NCBI GenBank assembly: GCA_019873685.1
Contig: JAIOAT010000007.1
Coordinates: 66,281-128,660 of the forward strand
Reading direction: 5' to 3'
Origin: Chloroflexota bacterium
GTDB lineage: Bacteria > Chloroflexota > Anaerolineae > Aggregatilineales > Ch27
Length of the DNA stretch: 62,380 nt
In this document: piece by piece, positions 18,039 to 27,718 of the stretch
Layout: each line of letters starts with the position of its first letter
Numbering within the stretch: position 1 is the first letter of the stretch
Program-made: the position numbers and the translations under genes
Notes under the pieces: model-generated
The model's input: the letters and a program-made list of their open reading frames with translations, nothing else
What the model was told of the DNA's origin: nothing
The model's database searches: none

Positions 18039-19601
18039 ATGACCGCTGTCGATATCCGTCGGCTGGCCAGCCGCCGGCTCGGCCAGTACGTCCTTGAGGA
18101 GTTGATCGGCCTGGGCGGGATGAGCGCCGTTTACCGCGCTCACCAGCCTGCCCTGGCGCGCGAGGTCGCCATCAAGGTTCTGGCCACGCAACTGGCCACC
18201 GACTCCGATTACCAGCAGCGCTTCGCCCTGGAAGCCCGCACCGCCGCTGCGCTGGAACATCCACACATCGTCCCCATCTACGACTACGGCGCCCAGGATG
18301 GCCTGCTGTATGTGGTCATGCGGCTGCTACCGGGCGGCTCCTTGGCCCAGCGTCTGCGCTACAGCCAGGAGACCGGCCACCCGCTCCCTTCCGTCGGCGA
18401 AGTTGCTGATCTGCTGGACGCCCTGGCGGACGCGCTGGCTTACGCTCACGGGCGCGGGATCATCCACCGCGACATCAAGCCGAGCAATGTCGTCTTTGAC
18501 CACCAGGGCGCGCCGCACCTGGTGGACTTCGGCATCGCCCGGATCATGAATGCCGACCTCAGCCTGACCGCCGCCGGGACAACCATCGGCACGCCTAATT
18601 ACATGGCCCCTGAACAATGGCGCGACGAGCCGCTCACCCCGGCTGTCGATCAGTACGCGCTGGGCATCCTGATCTTCAACACCCTGACCGGCCGCCTGCC
18701 CTTTGAAGCCACCACCGCCCACATCCTGATGCACAAGCATCTCAATGAACCACCGCCGCCCGTGCACACCCTGCGCCCTGACCTGCCGGAGGCACTCTCG
18801 CCAGCTGTGGAGCGGGCGCTGGCCAAGCTCCCGGCAGAGCGTTACCCGGCAATCGGCGACTTTGCTGCGGCTTTTCGCGCTGCCGCAGGCGCGAGTCTCG
18901 GCGAACCGACAGGCTTCTTCACCTTTCCCCTGCCGGCCAGCGCCCTGGCCCTGCAACCGACTCCTCCTGCCGACGCTGTCGCCGCGCCCGCGGCATCCAT
19001 GGCGCAGGCGGTGCCGCTGGCTGCGCCCGGCGGTGTGACCATGGCCGCTGATGTCCCTCCCCTGCCGGAAGACTCGCTGGCCGCCGTGCCGGGCCAGGCG
19101 GAACCTCCTTCCCTGCCGGAATGGTCGCGGGCAATGGCCGCGCCCCCACAGGCCGCCCCGGTGCGCCAGCCTGCTGGCAGCCGTGCCCGGCCCGCCACCC
19201 CACCCATGGCGCCTGTTGTCGCGCCCGCTGCTGCGCCCGCTGCTGCACCACCGCCTCGCCAGCAGGCGGCACGCCATGCCCTCGGCGCCACGCCACCCCA
19301 CCCCCGGCGCAGACCAGCCACAACCCTCAACCGGGTCGCCTTGCTCGTCTGGCTGCTGGCCCTGGCCGCGATTGTCGCCCTGATCGTCTTCATCCTCACC
19401 ATCCGGACAATCAATGCGGAGCGACTGATCGGCCTTGTACCGAACGCGCTGCCAATCGCGCAGGGCGTCGTCGCCGCATGCAGCATTGTCCCGGCAACCG
19501 GGCATCTCTGCACCGGTCACCTTCGCCTGGCGATGGTTACTCCCCCTGATCTGCTCACGGATCAAAAACAGCCGGGCAGGTTCCCGGCTGTCGGGGTATG
19601 A
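18039..19601 (+). CDS. transmembrane Ser/Thr protein kinase (PknB family)
   Basis: Hanks-type kinase of 520 residues. Kinase domain about 16-275: glycine loop LIGLGGMSAVYRA, VAIKVL (ATP Lys), HRDIKPSNVV catalytic loop, DFGIARI and APEQWRDEPLTPAVDQYALG. A Pro/Ala-rich juxtamembrane linker (about 300-425) leads to one membrane helix (VALLVWLLALAAIVALIVFIL). An outside tail of about 65 residues follows; it has two cysteines and no PASTA repeats. The start ATG has TGGAGGGC ten bases upstream. The last codons overlap a stem-loop that reads as the terminator of the convergent DUF4388 gene. Confidence 0.94.
   Translation: MTAVDIRRLASRRLGQYVLEELIGLGGMSAVYRAHQPALAREVAIKVLATQLATDSDYQQRFALEARTAAALEHPHIVPIYDYGAQDGLLYVVMRLLPGGSLAQRLRYSQETGHPLPSVGEVADLLDALADALAYAHGRGIIHRDIKPSNVVFDHQGAPHLVDFGIARIMNADLSLTAAGTTIGTPNYMAPEQWRDEPLTPAVDQYALGILIFNTLTGRLPFEATTAHILMHKHLNEPPPPVHTLRPDLPEALSPAVERALAKLPAERYPAIGDFAAAFRAAAGASLGEPTGFFTFPLPASALALQPTPPADAVAAPAASMAQAVPLAAPGGVTMAADVPPLPEDSLAAVPGQAEPPSLPEWSRAMAAPPQAAPVRQPAGSRARPATPPMAPVVAPAAAPAAAPPPRQQAARHALGATPPHPRRRPATTLNRVALLVWLLALAAIVALIVFILTIRTINAERLIGLVPNALPIAQGVVAACSIVPATGHLCTGHLRLAMVTPPDLLTDQKQPGRFPAVGV
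19564..19591 (-). terminator. intrinsic terminator of the DUF4388 gene, inside the kinase coding sequence
   Basis: Read leftward: nine-bp perfect stem ACAGCCGGG / CCCGGCTGT with a six-base loop, then TTTTT. It lies 26 bp after the DUF4388 gene's stop and within the final codons of the convergent kinase gene. In the rightward direction there is no T-run, so it should act one way only. Confidence 0.75.
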
Positions 19602-19616
19602 AACCTGACGTTCCGC

Positions 19617-20534
19617 TCAGGCGGACTGGCCGTCATCCTGCAGTGAATCGGTGTCAATCAGCCGCTCAGCAGCGCTCTGGATGCCTTCGATCAACGTGTC
19701 AAAGATTGACGGATCGGTGCTTTCAAGAGCAAAGTCGCTGGGCGGAAGCGCTTCAACTTCCTCGCCCTTGACCGGATCACCCAGTTCCACGACCCCGGCC
19801 TGCAGCAGGCTGATCACCACCCGGCGGACTTCCATCGCATCCATCTGGTTCTGCCGGGCAATCTGGCGGATGCTAACGCCCGGCTTGATCGACGAGATCA
19901 CGCGCCAGGCCCGCGCGCTGAGCCGGGTGTGCTGCAGCCGCTCGTCCACATCCGGGGTAAAGCGCAGGGTTGCGCTCAGGTTGGGCAATTCCTGAGTCAT
20001 GCGCAGCACTTCCCGAACATGCGAGCCGTGTTCCACCAGCACATCGCCCAGGTCAACCGAGACGGTGATGTGATCGTCCAGCGTGGGTGTCTGTTCCTCA
20101 AACAGGAAGGAGCCGTCCGTCCACATCAGCACGGTGTGGATGTCTTCTTTGAGTTGCTCGGTGAAAGCCTCCAGAATGTCCGCTTTGGTCACAAAATCGC
20201 CCTCGATCAGCAGCAGAGCCTGGGCTTTCTCGTTCACGTCCTTGAGCCGGTTCTGAATCCAGTGCGCCTGCATGGGGCTGAGTTTGCCCGTCCGCCGCAG
20301 CAGGGCCACCAGATCGCGCACCTCCACCATGCTAAGCACGGGTTTGCCCTGCTGGAAGACTATCCGCGCTCGCTTGAGCGAGGTGCTGGTGGTAACCGAG
20401 GTCGGCTGGCCAATCTCCTCAGGATTGTCCGGCACATTGGCAAAGATGGTTAACGTGCCAGACTTCTGAGCCAGGTTGATCAGGTTGAGGATCTGGCTGG
20501 TACTGAAGTCTTTGAGATTGCCCTGGAGTGTCAC
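19617..20534 (-). CDS. DUF4388 (PATAN) domain protein
   Basis: Protein of about 305 residues. The N-terminus LQGNLKDFSTSQILNLINLAQKSGTLTI is the PATAN/DUF4388 signature, a domain found in signalling proteins of Chloroflexota, cyanobacteria and deltaproteobacteria. A helical middle follows (VRDLVALLRRTGKLSP ... ALLLIEGDFVTKADI), resembling the helical linker common after PATAN. Then comes a possible winged-helix region (RAWRVISSIKPGVSIRQIARQNQMDAMEVRRVVISLLQAGVVEL), which suggests DNA or protein binding. The start is taken as GTG 20534 because GGAGG lies eight bases upstream; the earlier GTG overlaps that ribosome site. Its role is unknown; the kinase and the receiver/roadblock protein nearby suggest signalling. 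Confidence 0.85.
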   Translation of the reverse strand: MTLQGNLKDFSTSQILNLINLAQKSGTLTIFANVPDNPEEIGQPTSVTTSTSLKRARIVFQQGKPVLSMVEVRDLVALLRRTGKLSPMQAHWIQNRLKDVNEKAQALLLIEGDFVTKADILEAFTEQLKEDIHTVLMWTDGSFLFEEQTPTLDDHITVSVDLGDVLVEHGSHVREVLRMTQELPNLSATLRFTPDVDERLQHTRLSARAWRVISSIKPGVSIRQIARQNQMDAMEVRRVVISLLQAGVVELGDPVKGEEVEALPPSDFALESTDPSIFDTLIEGIQSAAERLIDTDSLQDDGQSA

Positions 20535-20890
20535 GCGAGCCACCTCCGATAATCACATCGTCTTCACATAAACTGATGAATAGCGTTTACCCGCCATAAC
20601 GGCGGGCGCCTGGAGCGCTGGCTTGCCGATAAAGTGCATCGCCGTTGCTCCCTGCAAACGTATAACCATACTATACACAAAAACCGCCGTGGTGTAGATA
20701 AAAAGAGTGAAAATTAGCCTTACCTGTCCCTCCACGCTACTTCTATATTAGCACACAGGTCAAGCCCGCGCTCGGAAGACTCGCCCCGCCCCGCCGCGCC
20801 ATGATAGAATCAGGTCAGCAAACATCAACCATTCTCCCGGCAGGTTCGTCGCCGGGGATAGCCGATCAGGCGGCGAATGAGGAGCATTCC
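20535..20890. other. divergent intergenic region, AT-richer, no gene supported
   Basis: About 350 bp between the leftward DUF4388 gene and the rightward lipoprotein gene. Leftward it holds TATAGT and TATACG boxes (around 20665-20680) as candidate -10s, with a weak TCTACA -35. Rightward there are TATATT (20744-20749) and TAGAAT (20805-20810), each with poor -35s. The string TTCTATATTAGCACA (20741-20755) resembles the palindrome at the polA promoter. A 60-codon leftward frame here is not believed to be a gene. Confidence 0.5.
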
Positions 20891-22111
20891 GTGAACCAAC
20901 AGCAGCGGTGGCGGCGTATGCTGGTGATACTCGCGGTGCTGATGGCCGGGTCGCTGGGCTGCAACCTGACGGCCCTGCTGCCGGGCGCAGGTGGCCTGGC
21001 TACGCCAACCTCCCCCCTCGGCGTGCCCAATGTGGTGATCAACAGCCCGCCGAATGGCAGTGAAGCGGTGATCGGCCAGGAAGTCCTGGTGCAATCGACA
21101 GCCCAGGACAGCATCGGAGTCACCCGCGTTGAGTTGCGCGTCAACAGCTTCATCGTCAATACGGTCAGCGCCCAGTCAAGCAATGGCGAGCGGTTGTTCT
21201 CCGTCATTCAGTCCTGGATTCCAAACGAAGCCGGTGTGGCCAATCTGGAGGTCATCGCCTACCGCGGTCTGATCGCCAGCGTGCCAGCGCGGATCACACT
21301 GCTGGTGCGGCAGAGCGCGGCTCAGGTCACGGCCACGCTGCCGCCGCCAAGCGGCGTCACCCTGCCCCCGCCTGAAGATCGCACCTGCCGCGCCCGCGTG
21401 GAAGTCTCCGGCCTTAACTTCCGTACCGGCCCCGGCACCAACTACCCCATCCTGCGCGTCCTGGAAGCTGGCACACTGGTAGATATCATTGGCCGGCTGG
21501 GGGACAATAGCTGGTGGCAGGTACGCACCGGCCTGGAAATCGGCTGGCTGAGCGCCACCTACACCAGCGAATCAGGCGATTGCAGCCTGATTCCGGTGGC
21601 GGTGCCGCCGCCCAGCCCCACCCCGCGTCCGGCTACCGCTACACCCACGGCGACCTTCACCCTCAGCCCGATCCCCGGCTCGCCCACGCCGACCTTCTCG
21701 CCCACGCCCACCATCCCCGATCTGGTCGTGAGCGCCATCACCGGCCCGGAGGTGCTTCAGCTGAATGCCACGGGCACCGTCGGCGCGCGCTATACCGTCC
21801 GCGTCTACAACCAGGGTACTGGCAACAGCGGGCAATTCACCACCAGCTTCCGCCAGCCAGACGGCTCGGTCATCCAGTTGCCCATCGTCGTCAACCTGGC
21901 CCCGGCGCAGTATGCCGACCTGGGCGTGGATGTGCTGTTCACCGCTTCTAATACCTACCGCCTGGAGGCCTTTGTGGACAGCGGCGCGCAGGTAGCGGAA
22001 TCCGACGAAGGCAACAACATCCGCACGTTGAACGTAGTCGTCACCACGCTGCCCGGCCTGCTGATCACCCTGCCGGGCGGCGGACTGGCCCTGACGCCGG
22101 TAGGGCCATGA
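20891..22111 (+). CDS. lipoprotein with Ig-like, SH3 and CARDB-type domains
   Basis: Surface lipoprotein of 406 residues. Signal peptide with lipobox ILAVLMAGSLGC; the Cys would be lipidated. An Ig-like domain (VINSPPNGSEAVIGQEV ... AYRGLIASVPARITLLVRQ) is followed by a bacterial SH3 domain (CRARVEVSGLNFRTGPGTNY ... GWLSATY), a Pro/Thr-rich spacer, and a C-terminal CARDB-like beta domain (PDLVVSAITGPEVL ... DEGNNIRTLNV). The start is GTG 20891 (MNQQQRWRRM), preceded by GAGGAG; the frame is open 30 codons further but with no ribosome site. The function is likely cell-wall or glycan binding. A shorter paralogue follows with ATGA overlap. Confidence 0.87.
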   Translation: MNQQQRWRRMLVILAVLMAGSLGCNLTALLPGAGGLATPTSPLGVPNVVINSPPNGSEAVIGQEVLVQSTAQDSIGVTRVELRVNSFIVNTVSAQSSNGERLFSVIQSWIPNEAGVANLEVIAYRGLIASVPARITLLVRQSAAQVTATLPPPSGVTLPPPEDRTCRARVEVSGLNFRTGPGTNYPILRVLEAGTLVDIIGRLGDNSWWQVRTGLEIGWLSATYTSESGDCSLIPVAVPPPSPTPRPATATPTATFTLSPIPGSPTPTFSPTPTIPDLVVSAITGPEVLQLNATGTVGARYTVRVYNQGTGNSGQFTTSFRQPDGSVIQLPIVVNLAPAQYADLGVDVLFTASNTYRLEAFVDSGAQVAESDEGNNIRTLNVVVTTLPGLLITLPGGGLALTPVGP

Positions 22112-22857
22112 CCCGCGCCGCCCCGGATAGCCGGCGCTGTGGCCGGCAGGTGGGAATCGCTCTGGCGCTGCTGATCCTGCTATCCAGCCTGGCCTGCAAT
22201 CTGGTCGGCGGCGGCCCTGCCGCAACACCCGCCCGCGCCCCGACAGTCGTCCCAGAAGGCCGCCCACAGGTGGTGGTGTTGTGGCCGCCCAGCGGTAGCG
22301 AGTTCGTCGTGCGCAGCGAGGTGACCGTGCGCGTCAACGCCACCGACAGCGTGGGGATCACCCGCCTGGAATTGCGTTCGGCCACCGCGATGCTCAGCAG
22401 CGTACCTTCGCCGGAGCGCAACGGCCAGCAAGTCATGGACGCCATCCTCTCCTGGACGCCCACCCGCGCCGGACAGCATGATCTGGAAGTGGTTGCCTAC
22501 CGGCGCAACGTGGCCAGCGAGCCGGTACCGCTGACGCTGATCATCCGCCAGCGCCGCGCTGACGTGCTGGCTACACCCGTCCCCTTCGGCGCGGAGCCAG
22601 CGGCGGCTCCGGCGGAACCAGGGACGGCCTGCCAGGTGCGCGTGAACATCGGCAACCTGCGTTACCGCAGCGGACCGGGTACGACCTATCCCGTGCTCGG
22701 CCTGCTGGATCTGGGCGAGGTCCTGGCCGTCACCGGTCAGAACGCCGCCCGCACCTGGTACCGTATCAACCGGGGTGGTCAGGTTGCCTGGGTCTCGGCG
22801 GATCCAGCCTACAGCACTGCGCTGACTGCTTGCACAGCCGCGCCGATCGTCGACTGA
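22108..22857 (+). CDS. lipoprotein with Ig-like and SH3 domains
   Basis: Paralogue of the preceding gene, 249 residues. Signal peptide ending in the lipobox LLSSLAC, then the same Ig-like domain (VVLWPPSGSEFVVRSEV ... TDSVGITRLELR ... LEVVAYRRNVASEP) and the same SH3 domain (CQVRVNIGNLRYRSGPGTTY ... VAWVSADP). It lacks the spacer and CARDB-like domain of its neighbour. The ATG overlaps the upstream TGA (22108-22111), so it is co-translated. It probably binds cell-wall glycan or peptide outside the membrane. The pair arose by tandem duplication with loss or gain of the C-terminal domain. Confidence 0.86.
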   Translation: MTRAAPDSRRCGRQVGIALALLILLSSLACNLVGGGPAATPARAPTVVPEGRPQVVVLWPPSGSEFVVRSEVTVRVNATDSVGITRLELRSATAMLSSVPSPERNGQQVMDAILSWTPTRAGQHDLEVVAYRRNVASEPVPLTLIIRQRRADVLATPVPFGAEPAAAPAEPGTACQVRVNIGNLRYRSGPGTTYPVLGLLDLGEVLAVTGQNAARTWYRINRGGQVAWVSADPAYSTALTACTAAPIVD

Positions 22858-22870
22858 ACACGCATCTGCG

Positions 22871-22899
22871 TTGACGCTGCCTTGGCGCAGGACTACAAT
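22871..22899 (+). promoter_or_regulatory. sigma70-type promoter of the receiver/roadblock gene
   Basis: TTGACG (22871-22876), 17-bp spacer, TACAAT (22894-22899). Both hexamers and spacing are identical to the miaB promoter. The start would be near 22906, 21 bp before the ATG, just leaving room for the GGGGGAG ribosome site. Confidence 0.7.
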
Positions 22900-22926: not shown

Positions 22927-24723
22927 ATGTTCAGCCGGATACTTTTCGTCGATAGCGAAGCCGCGGCCCTGGCCCGTATCACGCGGGCGATTGAGCGCAC
23001 CGGTCTGTACGAGGCGGATGCCTTTGTCACCGGTCAGGCTGCTCTGGAGCACGCGGCGCTCCATCCGCCCGACCTGGCGGTCATCGCGCTCAACCTGGGC
23101 GATATGCCGCCGGTGGCGCTGGCCATGCGCCTTCGGGAAATGCGCCCCGGTCTGCCTATTGTGCTGCGGGCGACGACCGAGCCGGACGCCGAAACCATGC
23201 GCCTGGTCAGCCCACAGGGAGTCGTGCGCGGCAACTATGCCGCCCGCGAGGTGCTCCCACTGCTGGAATACGCCCTGACCGAAGGGCAGTCCCTGGCAAC
23301 TCAGTCATTCCTCGCCCCGGAACCAGCCATGCCGGATAGCACCGCCAGGATTGAGGCGAACTTCGGCGAAGCGCTGGCTCCGCTGGAGCAGAAACCCCCT
23401 GACATACCGGACGATTTTGACCGTCTGGTGGACTCTTTGCGTGCACCAGAAGAGAAGCCGTCACTGCTGAAGCGTGGCGAGTCGCTGGCCGCCCCACCCG
23501 GAGACCAGCCGATCACCCCTGTTGAGGGGCCTCCCCCGGCGGATGACAGCTTCTACCGCCTGGCAGCAGAGGAGCCGCCCCTGCCGGGCCTGGAGGATAC
23601 CGGCACCATCAGCGACCTGATTGCCGTCGCCAGTGCCGCCACACCGCAGGAGCGCGCTGGCGTGATTGATATTCCCGAAGAAATGATCGAAGACACGCCC
23701 TCCACCGTCCTTGCTGACACCGCCGAACTTGTCACCAGCGCTGCGCCCCCCGGCCATGCTGGCCCCGGTCCACTGCCGCATCTGCCTGCCGCCAGGACGC
23801 GCCCGGTCGGCCAGGAAGCCGAACCGGCCAGCGCCGATGTCCGGGCTGCTGCCCTGGCGCTGGAACTGACCCAGCACACCCTCGAATCAGCGGCGCAGGC
23901 CAGTGTGCTGATCCAGCAGGGCCAGGTCATCGCGGTGGCCGGTCAACTCCCCCCTGAAGAGGTGCGCCAACTGGTCGCGGTCATTGATTGGCAGGCGGTG
24001 CTGGCTGAAGGCACCACCAAGATCAAGTTCGCGACGCTGCCGGAGTCGCGGGTCAACTACATGATTGTGGCGGCCCCGACGGTCGAAGACATGGTGCTGA
24101 TGACGGTCTACCCGGAAAACATGCACCTGCGCACCATCCGCCAGCAGACGCGGGCGATCGTGGAGGCACTGGCGCGCGCCGCGGAGACACCGCTACAAGA
24201 GCAGCCGTCCGCCGCTGCACAGGAAGCCGTCCCGCCGCCAGAACCCCCTCCCGCACCTCAGTCCTCCGCTGCTACGCCAGAACCGCCCGCCCCGCCACGG
24301 GACGAGGCTCCCCAACCAGCTCGTACTCCGGCTGGCCCCCACCCCCAGCCGCAAGCCAGCAAACTGGAATCGCTCGCCTGCGCCTGGATTCTGCGCAACC
24401 CGACTGGCGAACTTGACCCGGACACCATACGGGCGTTAGCAGCGACCCTGAACGGTGTCCTGGCTGACCGTAACTGGACCGCCGGGCAGGTCGAAATCCA
24501 GCCGGATTACGTGAGCGTCGTGCTCAGCGTCCCGGCGGAGGAAGCGCTATCCCGCGTCATTCAGACGCTGATGGGTGAGACTGCCCGCTGCGTGGCGGCC
24601 CTGCGCCCGGAACTGGGACCAGCGGCGGATGTCTGGGCTGACGCCTACTATGTAGTCACGCCGGGCCGCCCCCTGACCGCCCTGGAAGTCGCCCAGTTCA
24701 TCAGCTATCAGCGCCAGACCTGA
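22927..24723 (+). CDS. pseudo-receiver / roadblock / inactivated TnpA-like three-part protein
   Basis: Protein of 598 residues with unusual architecture. (1) Residues 1-120 look like a response-regulator receiver (RILFVDSEAAAL ... PDLAVIALNLGDMPP), but the phosphoacceptor Asp position is Ala and the conserved Lys is missing. (2) A long acidic/Pro-rich linker. (3) A roadblock/LC7-like segment (about 300-420: ALELTQHTLESAAQASVLIQ ... VNYMIVAAPTVEDMVLMTVY). (4) A second Pro-rich linker. (5) A C-terminal 120 residues that align by eye along their length with IS200/IS605 TnpA: QPDYVSVVLSVP for the HUH strand and EVAQFISYQ for the catalytic-Tyr helix, with both His and the Tyr replaced. ATG 22927 is chosen for GGGGGAG upstream. 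Likely a signalling scaffold. Confidence 0.82.
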   Translation: MFSRILFVDSEAAALARITRAIERTGLYEADAFVTGQAALEHAALHPPDLAVIALNLGDMPPVALAMRLREMRPGLPIVLRATTEPDAETMRLVSPQGVVRGNYAAREVLPLLEYALTEGQSLATQSFLAPEPAMPDSTARIEANFGEALAPLEQKPPDIPDDFDRLVDSLRAPEEKPSLLKRGESLAAPPGDQPITPVEGPPPADDSFYRLAAEEPPLPGLEDTGTISDLIAVASAATPQERAGVIDIPEEMIEDTPSTVLADTAELVTSAAPPGHAGPGPLPHLPAARTRPVGQEAEPASADVRAAALALELTQHTLESAAQASVLIQQGQVIAVAGQLPPEEVRQLVAVIDWQAVLAEGTTKIKFATLPESRVNYMIVAAPTVEDMVLMTVYPENMHLRTIRQQTRAIVEALARAAETPLQEQPSAAAQEAVPPPEPPPAPQSSAATPEPPAPPRDEAPQPARTPAGPHPQPQASKLESLACAWILRNPTGELDPDTIRALAATLNGVLADRNWTAGQVEIQPDYVSVVLSVPAEEALSRVIQTLMGETARCVAALRPELGPAADVWADAYYVVTPGRPLTALEVAQFISYQRQT

Positions 24724-24742: not shown

Positions 24743-24777
24743 TTGCTTAACCGGAACACCTGTTCTATATTAGAACA
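24743..24777 (+). promoter_or_regulatory. polA promoter with perfect palindromic operator
   Basis: TTGCTT (24743-24748), 17-bp spacer and TATATT (24766-24771). The -10 lies inside the perfect inverted repeat TGTTCTATATTAGAACA (24761-24777; seven-base arms, three-base centre). A protein bound there would cover the -10 and start site, so repression is the likely effect. The leader to the polA ATG is about 75 nt. Confidence 0.6.
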
Positions 24778-24853: not shown

Positions 24854-27718
24854 ATGCCAAGCGCAGCCAAACGCCCAACCCTGATCATGATTGACGGGCA
24901 TGCCCTGGCTTACCGCCAGTTCTTCGCCCTGCCCCTGGAATCTTTCAGCACCCATGGCGGCGAGCCAACCAACGCTACCTTCGGCTTCGCCCGCACCCTG
25001 CTGGACATTCTGGAAAAGGATCGCCCGGATTACCTGCTGGCCACCTTCGATCGCGGGCTGAGCGGTCGTAATCAACTCTATCCCGACTACAAAGCCACCC
25101 GCGACAAAATGCCCGACGAGTTGCGCATCCAGATGCAGCGCATCCACGAACTGGTAGAAGCGTTCAATATCCCGCTGCTGAGCATCAACGGCTACGAAGC
25201 GGACGACCTGCTCGGCACGCTCAGCGATCAGGCTGCCGCCCGGGACCTTGATGTGCTGATCGTCACTGGCGACCGGGACCTGCTCCAGCTCGTCACCGAA
25301 CGCATCCACGTCCGCCTGCCGGCTGCCCGCCGCGCAGGGAATGGCGACCAGGTCTTCGACCCGGCGGCCTTCCGCGAAGCCTATGAGGGCCTTGAGCCAC
25401 CGCAACTGGTCGACCTGAAAGCTCTGATGGGCGATCCTTCCGACAACATCCCCGGCGTCAAGGGCATTGGCGAAAAAGGCGGGATCAAGCTGCTCAAGGC
25501 TTACGGCTCGCTGGAAGGCATCTTCGCGCATCTGGCCGAATTGCCCGCCGGGCAGCGCCAGAAACTGGAAGAAGGCCGCGAGATGGCTTTCCTCAGCCGG
25601 GAGCTGGCCCGCATCCGCCACGACGCGCCAGTGACGCTGGACCTGCCTGCCTGCGTCGCTCAGGATTATGACCGTGATCGCGTCGCCGAGTTATTCCGTA
25701 CGCTGCAGTTCCGCAGCCTGATCGGTCGGCTGGCCCCGGTGGGCGAAGCGCATGCTACCCCCGGCGTCGCCAGGCAACTCAGCATGTTCGCCACCGCCGA
25801 GGAAGCCGCGCCGGCAGCCCCCCACACCGGGGCAAGCGCAGCCATTGCCGCCACCGTCATCATCCAGGACGAGAAGGCCCTCGCTAACCTGGTCAACAGG
25901 CTCAACGCCGCCTCCGCCATCAGCTTCGACACAGAAACGACCAGCACCGACCAGATGCAGGCTGAGCTTGTGGGCATCTCCCTCTCCACAGATGGCGAGA
26001 CCGGCTACTACATCCCGGTCGGTCATACCCCGCCACCCGGCGCCGGGCAGGAGCCACTGCTGGAGGAGGCAGCGCTGCGCCAGCTATCGCTGGAACAGGT
26101 GATCGCCGCGCTGCGCGGCCCGCTGACCGACCCGCGCATCCCCAAGTACGGGCACAATGCCAAGTACGACCTGATTGTTCTGCGCCGCTACGGGCTGGAT
26201 GTGACGCCGATCCGCTTCGACACAATGGTAGCGGAGTGGTTGTGTGACCCGGACAGCCGCAACAAGGGCCTCAAGAACCTGGCCTGGATCCGGCTGGGGT
26301 TGGAGATGACGCCGATCACCGATCTGATCGGCAGCGGCAAGAACCAGATCACCATGGATCGCGTGTCCATCCCCGCGGCGGCCTCCTATGCCGCCGCCGA
26401 CGCCGCTGTGACCTTCCGCCTGGTGGCGCCGCTGCGCGCTGAACTGGAGGAGAAGCGCGTCCTCAAGCTCTACGACGATCTGGAGATGCCCCTCCTGCCC
26501 GTCCTGGCCGACATGGAAATGGCCGGCATCCGTCTGGATACCGCTTACCTGGCCCAGATCAGCGCCGAACTGAGCGCGCGCCTGGCGGCGTTGGAACAGG
26601 AGATTTACGACCAGGCGGGCGGTTACGGGCCGTTTAATATCAACAGCCCCAAGCAGCTGAACGATGTACTCTTCGGCAAGCTTCAGCTTCCGGCGGAAGG
26701 CGTCCGCAAGACCACACACGGCCTCTCCACTTCCGCCGACGTGCTGGAAGACCTGCGCGACCTGCATCCCATCGTTGGCCTGATCCTGGAACACCGCGAA
26801 CTGACCAAACTCAAAGGCACTTACGTCGATGCGCTGCCGGAGCTGGTCAACCCGCGCACCGGGCGGCTGCACACCAGCTTCAACCAGACCGGCACAGTCA
26901 CCGGGCGGATCAGCAGCGACAACCCTAACCTGCAGAACATCCCGGTGCGGACGGAACAGGGCCGCCAGATCCGGCGGGCTTTTGTCGCCCCGGAAGGGCA
27001 CTATCTGCTATCGGTCGATTACAGTCAAGTCGAATTGCGCGTGCTGGCGCATATCAGCCAGGACCCCACCCTGCTGGAAGCCTTCCGCCAGGGGCAGGAC
27101 ATCCACCGCACGACAGCTGCTACTGTCTACGGCATCCCGTTTGAGGCAGTGACTTATGACCAGAGGCGCTTTGCCAAGAGTGTCAACTTTGGCCTGCTGT
27201 ACGGCATGGGCGCTTTCCGGCTGGCCCGGGATAGCAACCTGACGCTGGCCCAGGCGGAAGCCTTCATCCAGGCCTATTTTGAGCGCTTCCCGCGCGTCCG
27301 CGCCTACCTGGATGAGACCAAACGCCTGGCGGCGTCGCAGGGCTACCTGGAGACGCTGCTGGGCCGCCGCCGCTACTTCCCGGAATTGCAGGCTTCTGCC
27401 AGCAGCCGGGCCAGCGCCGTCGCCCGCCAGCGGGCCGAGCGCCAGGCGATCAACATGCCCATCCAGGGCACAGCAGCGGACATCATGAAGCTGGCCATGA
27501 TCCAGGTTCAGGAGCGCCTGAAGGCCGGCAGGTATCCGGCGCGGATGCTCCTGCAGGTACATGACGAACTGGTGCTGGAGGTGGCCGAAGACGCCCTGGA
27601 GTCGGTGACCCGGCTGGTGATCGAGACCATGGAAGGGGCCTTCGCCCTGGATGCGCCGCTCCGCGCCGACGCCCGTTATGGCGCTAACTGGCTGGATATG
27701 CAGGACTTCACGGCATAG
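24854..27718 (+). CDS. polA: DNA polymerase I
   Basis: Family A polymerase of 954 residues for Okazaki-fragment processing and repair. The N-terminal 5'-3' exonuclease (about 1-300) has IDGHALAYR, GYEADDLLG, VTGDRDLLQL and GDPSDNIPGVKGIGEKG. The 3'-5' proofreading site looks intact: FDTET near 358, GHNAKYDL and YAAADA. Polymerase motifs: A DYSQVELR near 721, B RRFAKSVNFGLLYG near 775 (Phe at the sugar-discriminating position), C VHDEL near 902. The start is ATG 24854 (MPSAAKRPTL) with GGAGAG nine bases upstream; a TTG two codons earlier is less likely. The promoter carries a palindrome, and an intrinsic terminator follows. Confidence 0.97.
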   Translation: MPSAAKRPTLIMIDGHALAYRQFFALPLESFSTHGGEPTNATFGFARTLLDILEKDRPDYLLATFDRGLSGRNQLYPDYKATRDKMPDELRIQMQRIHELVEAFNIPLLSINGYEADDLLGTLSDQAAARDLDVLIVTGDRDLLQLVTERIHVRLPAARRAGNGDQVFDPAAFREAYEGLEPPQLVDLKALMGDPSDNIPGVKGIGEKGGIKLLKAYGSLEGIFAHLAELPAGQRQKLEEGREMAFLSRELARIRHDAPVTLDLPACVAQDYDRDRVAELFRTLQFRSLIGRLAPVGEAHATPGVARQLSMFATAEEAAPAAPHTGASAAIAATVIIQDEKALANLVNRLNAASAISFDTETTSTDQMQAELVGISLSTDGETGYYIPVGHTPPPGAGQEPLLEEAALRQLSLEQVIAALRGPLTDPRIPKYGHNAKYDLIVLRRYGLDVTPIRFDTMVAEWLCDPDSRNKGLKNLAWIRLGLEMTPITDLIGSGKNQITMDRVSIPAAASYAAADAAVTFRLVAPLRAELEEKRVLKLYDDLEMPLLPVLADMEMAGIRLDTAYLAQISAELSARLAALEQEIYDQAGGYGPFNINSPKQLNDVLFGKLQLPAEGVRKTTHGLSTSADVLEDLRDLHPIVGLILEHRELTKLKGTYVDALPELVNPRTGRLHTSFNQTGTVTGRISSDNPNLQNIPVRTEQGRQIRRAFVAPEGHYLLSVDYSQVELRVLAHISQDPTLLEAFRQGQDIHRTTAATVYGIPFEAVTYDQRRFAKSVNFGLLYGMGAFRLARDSNLTLAQAEAFIQAYFERFPRVRAYLDETKRLAASQGYLETLLGRRRYFPELQASASSRASAVARQRAERQAINMPIQGTAADIMKLAMIQVQERLKAGRYPARMLLQVHDELVLEVAEDALESVTRLVIETMEGAFALDAPLRADARYGANWLDMQDFTA

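Follow-up and report, generated by a model that had tools for sequence, protein, structure and literature searches.

TldR proteins originate from nuclease-dead TnpB. These regulators are related to the TnpB of the IS605 family (PMC13418256), and the RAYTs are domesticated Y1 proteins that share the catalytic domain (PMC6006769, PMC8266576). Y1 proteins that were longer than expected were set aside in one of these studies (PMC6006769). Proteins in which a receiver is fused to a roadblock domain (Response_reg - Robl_LC7) are also known (PMC4316618). Here we describe a protein of the order Aggregatilineales (Chloroflexota), encoded within the window (the whole 62,380-nucleotide stretch of DNA that was analysed), in which a receiver and a roadblock-like domain are followed by a TnpA domain without its catalytic residues. 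No earlier report of a receiver-roadblock protein that ends in a dead TnpA was found in the open-access literature. A TnpA has apparently become a part of a signalling protein that has no catalytic activity and probably does not bind DNA, and that is retained across a bacterial class. It would offer a clean example of a former transposase fold put to protein-protein work.

Domain architecture of the fusion protein

The fusion gene (22927..24723, + strand; 598 aa) starts with the ATG at 22927, orthologues beginning at the equivalent Met; its mechanical ORF opens at a TTG at 22882. The protein is ordered as receiver, disordered linker, MglB-like roadblock, linker and dead TnpA, and in the full-length AlphaFold2 (AF2) model the receiver (1-130) is separated by a long linker of low confidence from a domain with roadblock topology (302-420), which is followed by linker 2 and the TnpA domain. 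In fold searches with this full-length model, the matches were all taken up by receivers and TnpAs.

The receiver (residues 1-128; 23310 being its last base from 22927, +) matches PF00072 (E 9.6e-8, 32.6 bits) and, in the AF2 model, CheY-like receivers in the PDB at a VIA Z of ~17-19. The claim of the first-pass annotation that the TnpA domain is fused to a signalling protein is supported. The window receiver has Ala54 at the phospho-Asp position and Gly102 at the Lys position. In the window's family, Ala or Ser replaces the phospho-Asp, and the Lys has been lost; most other lineages retain the Asp. Linker 1 (23311..23829, +) is of low complexity and mostly disordered, with an AF2 pLDDT mostly <50 over residues 132 to 300.

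The middle domain (residues 302-421; 23830..24189, +) was assigned from its topology in the AF2 model (alpha-beta-beta-alpha-beta-beta-beta-alpha) and from a 19-orthologue profile, whose first eight PDB matches are MglB chains, although the matches are weak (best E 0.0045). The domain did not reach the Pfam Robl_LC7 threshold, and no match to the four roadblock proteins of the window genome came out of a profile-profile comparison, perhaps because both alignments are shallow. We describe it with moderate confidence as roadblock-like and tentatively as MglB-like. The window genome encodes other roadblock proteins and a small-GTPase-like protein (G000:C1:269733-270095); no GTPase gene adjoining the fusion was identified. 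A Pro-rich disordered linker 2 (24190..24360, +; pLDDT ~40-50), the fastest-evolving part of the protein, leads to the C-terminal domain.

Origin of the C-terminal domain

The C-terminal domain (residues 479-598; 24361..24720, +) was recognised as a dead TnpA (Y1_Tnp) by Pfam and NCBIfam profiles, pairwise PDB alignment and its AF2 fold. It matches Pfam PF01797 (Y1_Tnp) at 34.5 bits (E 2.5e-8, residues 28-122 of a 125-aa query), above the cut-off of 23 bits. Against the NCBIfam model for IS200 transposases it scores 29.8 bits (E 5.9e-7), under the curated equivalog cut-off of 55. A profile built from 27 orthologous C-termini matched solved TnpAs over the whole domain at up to E 2e-15. In pairwise alignment, the best PDB match is 2xo6, the Y132F mutant of ISDra2 TnpA, and QPDYVSVV of the window domain pairs with the PDHVHLLL strand of ISDra2 TnpA. 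These searches agree with the earlier reading that the last ~120 residues align with TnpA, and the three segments on which that reading relied occur in frame in the fusion protein: QPDYVSVVLSVP (residues 525-536) at the HUH strand, ADVWADAYYVVTPGR (residues 567-581) at the LW strand, and EVAQFISYQ (residues 587-595) at the catalytic helix.

The AF2 model of the domain (mean pLDDT 95.5) has the beta-alpha-beta-beta-alpha-beta-alpha topology of TnpA and not a different fold, which would have refuted the earlier reading. When this model was searched against the PDB with Foldseek, the best 30 matches were all IS200/IS605-type TnpAs or RAYTs. In VIA-align, TnpAs score Z 14-16 and the RAYT 4er8 scores 8.8; among unrelated folds the best reaches 9.2, and unrelated ferredoxin-like folds lie at Z 7-9. 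Because the profile, pairwise and fold matches lie far above chance, the recognition of a TnpA is right, and the domain is almost certainly an IS200/IS605-type TnpA by descent that was captured into a signalling protein.

Loss of the catalytic residues and changes to the surface

In the alignment to ISDra2 TnpA, Y528 (24508..24510, +) stands in for the first HUH His, S530 (24514..24516, +) for the second, and F591 (24697..24699, +) for the nucleophilic Tyr, where it pairs with F132 of 2xo6. The substitutions H to Y, H to S and Y to F had thus been read correctly for the window protein. Judged by its residues, the window domain is without HUH/Tyr catalysis, both His and the Tyr nucleophile being replaced. 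The third class-1 metal ligand, the Gln at Tyr+4, is retained as Q595 in the window and is variable among other fusions. Residue counts were made over 87 rows of the fusion length class, which include one true TnpA in a run-on frame (L044); His-x-His occurs in none of the fusions, and the Tyr place holds Phe in 68 rows, Tyr in 12 (mostly from the Anaerolineaceae-like family f9) and Leu in 5. The second HUH His is retained in the members of family f15 that were read and the first in a few fusion lineages (THVS), so that the loss was either stepwise or repeated in detail. DR_0177 (PDB 2fyx), a solved TnpA relative from Deinococcus, also has PDYVHL, in which Tyr takes the position of the first His.

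The surface has also changed. Active TnpAs have net charges of +2 to +9, compared with 0 to -18 for the fusions of the window's order; the dead domains of family f9 are mildly basic, mostly +3 to +6. Conserved basic positions were taken as those with K/R in at least 70% of the sampled TnpAs, and are presumed DNA contacts defined by sequence only. K/R is present in 0% of the order's fusions at the equivalents of R492 and R572 (P492 and D572 in the window), in 1% at N491, in 9% at P565 and in 35% at M549 (K549). D572 (24640..24642, +) is an acidic residue where 8/10 true TnpAs have Arg, and Asp stands in place of Arg there in ~82% of the order's fusions. The fold tryptophans W570, W517 and W487 are retained at 93-100%. 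Newly conserved in the fusions, in addition to D572, are P579 (95%), R581 (97%; a position that is mostly a gap in TnpA), E587 (92%) and R596 (96%), and the lowest entropy of the dead domain is found in beta4 and the turn behind it. With so many orthologues available, both the loss of chemistry and the newly conserved residues can be tested.

These residue patterns point to an old fold with a changed surface in this order, one that probably disfavours ssDNA binding. The first-pass annotation had proposed reuse as a dimer or nucleic-acid-binding module. A dimer or protein-binding module would fit the data; since the domain is acidic and its basic positions are mostly lost or reversed in the order, nucleic-acid binding is not supported there.

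Distribution, phylogeny and selection

The full-length protein was matched in 104 of 121 genomes, all belonging to the Aggregatilineales, and a class-wide search with the domain gave a match in 33 of the 37 same-order genomes among those listed. Genome searches with the dead domain covered the Chloroflexota, and the same fusion, which was worth seeking in other members of the phylum, was found class-wide across the Anaerolineae, in at least five further families (f9, f12, f15, f20 and f123). The relatives with names (16 loci, from a query with a 10-row alignment subset) are Aggregatilineales and other Anaerolineae MAGs. Elsewhere in the Chloroflexota, most matches are genes of ordinary TnpA size (~130-190 aa), which are often multicopy. 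The window genome, by contrast, has a single copy of the dead domain, inside the 598-aa gene and not as a stand-alone multicopy element.

A tree of 55 rows was rooted on ten active TnpAs, sampled only from Chloroflexota; all fusions and stand-alone dead copies fall opposite these TnpAs with support of 98/95. The fusions thus form a single clade, separate from the active TnpAs in the sample, which fits a single domestication. When the window is compared with its congener G001, dN/dS is lowest for the receiver (0.039), followed by polA (0.062), the roadblock (0.088), the TnpA domain (0.22) and linker 2 (0.44); in five other pairs the TnpA domain has values of 0.06-0.30. As these values are well below 1, the dead domain of the window is under purifying selection. 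The proposed domestication is thereby upheld: the domain is near-universal in the order, usually single-copy, confined to one clade, maintained by selection and recurrently followed by polA. Such genes score as Y1_Tnp, yet they are not transposases, and annotation should take this into account.

Several variants and further TnpA-like genes were observed in these genomes. In family f15 (L181-L184, L192), a shorter receiver - roadblock-like - TnpA-like protein of ~380 aa, in which the second HUH His persists (e.g., PDVIHLVV), is encoded next to a gene of ~830 aa. Genomes of family f9 (L194 1-9000; L198 1-10000) contain stand-alone dead TnpA copies, with a tandem pair in G511; these are followed by genes for a Mrr-like endonuclease, a TPR protein and a histidine kinase, and in L194 a LuxR-type response regulator lies ahead. 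No common function is indicated by the neighbours of the stand-alone dead copies. The only other Y1_Tnp match in the window genome (L033; G000:C11:48798-48956) looks like a REP-type protein (NHVHG ... REYILFNP), and an ordinary IS200 TnpA is absent from that genome. Contig G068:C1 has ten TnpA-like ORFs of 153 aa with identical scores, in a genome that also carries the fusion.

Gene neighbourhood

The gene that follows the fusion in the window encodes DNA polymerase I (polA; 24854..27718, +), as identified from its own sequence. In 17 examined loci, from the window's order, f9 and f12, the fusion is directly followed by polA on the same strand. The fusion-polA order looks ancient. The gap between the two genes ranges from a 4-base overlap to >300 bp, and a promoter-like TATAAT can be seen by eye in the gap before several polA genes; co-transcription is therefore not claimed.

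The gap before polA in the window contains a LexA-box-like sequence, GAACACCTGTTC (GAAC-N4-GTTC), at 24754-24765. The box is common to the window and L080, and occurs in L064 as GAACATCTGTTC; it was not found in the other loci checked, outside the window's family. A link to the SOS response was rejected, since among the examined loci the box is restricted to that family and one match per window is about what chance would give (0.56 expected). Directly upstream of the fusion (18039-22857) are genes for a Ser/Thr kinase, a DUF4388 protein (19617-20543, -) and two SH3/Big_7 proteins, and SH3-type genes are again found upstream of the fusion in other genomes. An Rfam scan of the window returned one tRNA and nothing else.

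Proposed role and alternative explanations

We propose that a receiver-roadblock signalling protein acquired a TnpA by fusion, most likely in a single event early in the history of the Anaerolineae. The profile, model and residue counts show that this TnpA lost the HUH/Tyr chemistry and most conserved basic positions with its fold retained. The present role of the dead TnpA would most likely be that of a homodimerisation or partner-binding module. Joined by flexible linkers, this domain and the MglB-like roadblock may assemble into an oligomer that serves as a scaffold for the control of a Ras-like (MglA-type) GTPase or some other target. Phosphorylation of the receiver is a probable input in most lineages; since the phospho-Asp is gone in the window's family, the protein would act there constitutively or by binding alone. 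Taken as a whole, a captured dead TnpA that serves as the dimerisation or partner-binding part of a signalling protein is the best explanation and, in our judgement, a rather probable one. The mechanism, namely a dimeric or partner-binding scaffold with GTPase control, is more tentative, and its chance of being right is slightly below even.

A polarity role leaves the fusion-polA linkage unexplained. It is possible, although quite improbable, that the dead acidic TnpA was rebuilt as the partner-binding switch of an MglB-like GTPase regulator with a functional tie to DNA polymerase I. The newly conserved D572, P579, R581, E587 and R596 would then surround the old LW strand and catalytic helix, and polarity-type signalling would be linked to DNA repair. 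Alternatively, the dead domain might bind, but not cut, nucleic acid (an ssDNA hairpin, RNA or damaged DNA) and tether the protein to DNA, perhaps in connection with PolA. The retained TnpA fold and the position of polA would be consistent with such binding, which is possible in family f9 because the domain there is mildly basic and usually keeps the Tyr. In the window's order, however, the domain is acidic and has lost K/R wholly at the R492 and R572 equivalents, the latter mostly to Asp, and largely at K549. In addition, the gap before several polA genes seems, by eye, to hold a separate promoter-like TATAAT; we consider nucleic-acid binding unlikely.

Since TnpA acts as a dimer (PMC6006769) and the dead domain retains its fold, it could also heterodimerise with active IS200/IS605 TnpA and poison transposition in a dominant-negative manner, and the coexistence of the fusion with ten TnpA-like ORFs in G068 provides a setting for this. 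That genome, however, gives no sign of restraint, the divergence from TnpA is large, and purifying selection acts in the window genome, where the REP-type protein is the only other Y1 protein; this makes poisoning very improbable. TnpA genes are mobile and prone to decay (PMC6006769), but a recent in-frame insertion or a decaying, functionless remnant at the gene end is refuted by the presence of the fusion in the majority of the order's examined genomes and in other families of the class, and by intact frames, invariant residues and dN/dS well below 1. Likewise, ferredoxin-like folds are common, and unrelated ones do reach the Z scores given above, but a chance resemblance without TnpA descent is refuted by the profile statistics (E 2.5e-8 for Pfam, 2e-15 for the PDB TnpAs) together with the alignment of the HUH and LW strands and of the terminal helix. 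Both readings have a negligible probability.

Comparison with known systems

The window domain resembles the IS200/IS605 TnpAs (ISDra2, 2xm3/2xma; IS608, 2a6m/2vju; 2f4f; 2ec2) in its fold, the positions of the HUH and LW strands, the terminal helix and the Gln at Tyr+4. Unlike them, it lacks both His and the Tyr, has mostly lost or reversed the conserved basic positions, and is fused to a signalling protein as a single, vertically conserved copy. RAYT/TnpA-REP proteins (4er8; PMC8266576, PMC6006769) represent the same transposase family domesticated in bacteria, but they share its HUH-Y catalytic domain, and their substrates are REP hairpins, whereas the window domain is dead and, by both profile and structure, nearer to class-1 TnpA than to RAYT.

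The combination of a receiver with a putative roadblock resembles the Response_reg - Robl_LC7 fusions (PMC4316618) and the polarity module that RomR, MglB and MglA form in Myxococcus (PMC9481161, PMC12719032). Regulation of a small GTPase is presumed, the GTPase partner of the window protein being putative; in contrast to these systems, the window protein has an additional C-terminal dead TnpA and long linkers. As in TldR, a relative of an IS605-family protein has been reused for regulation without nuclease chemistry; TldR, however, derives from TnpB and is RNA-guided, whereas the window domain derives from TnpA and probably acts via proteins.
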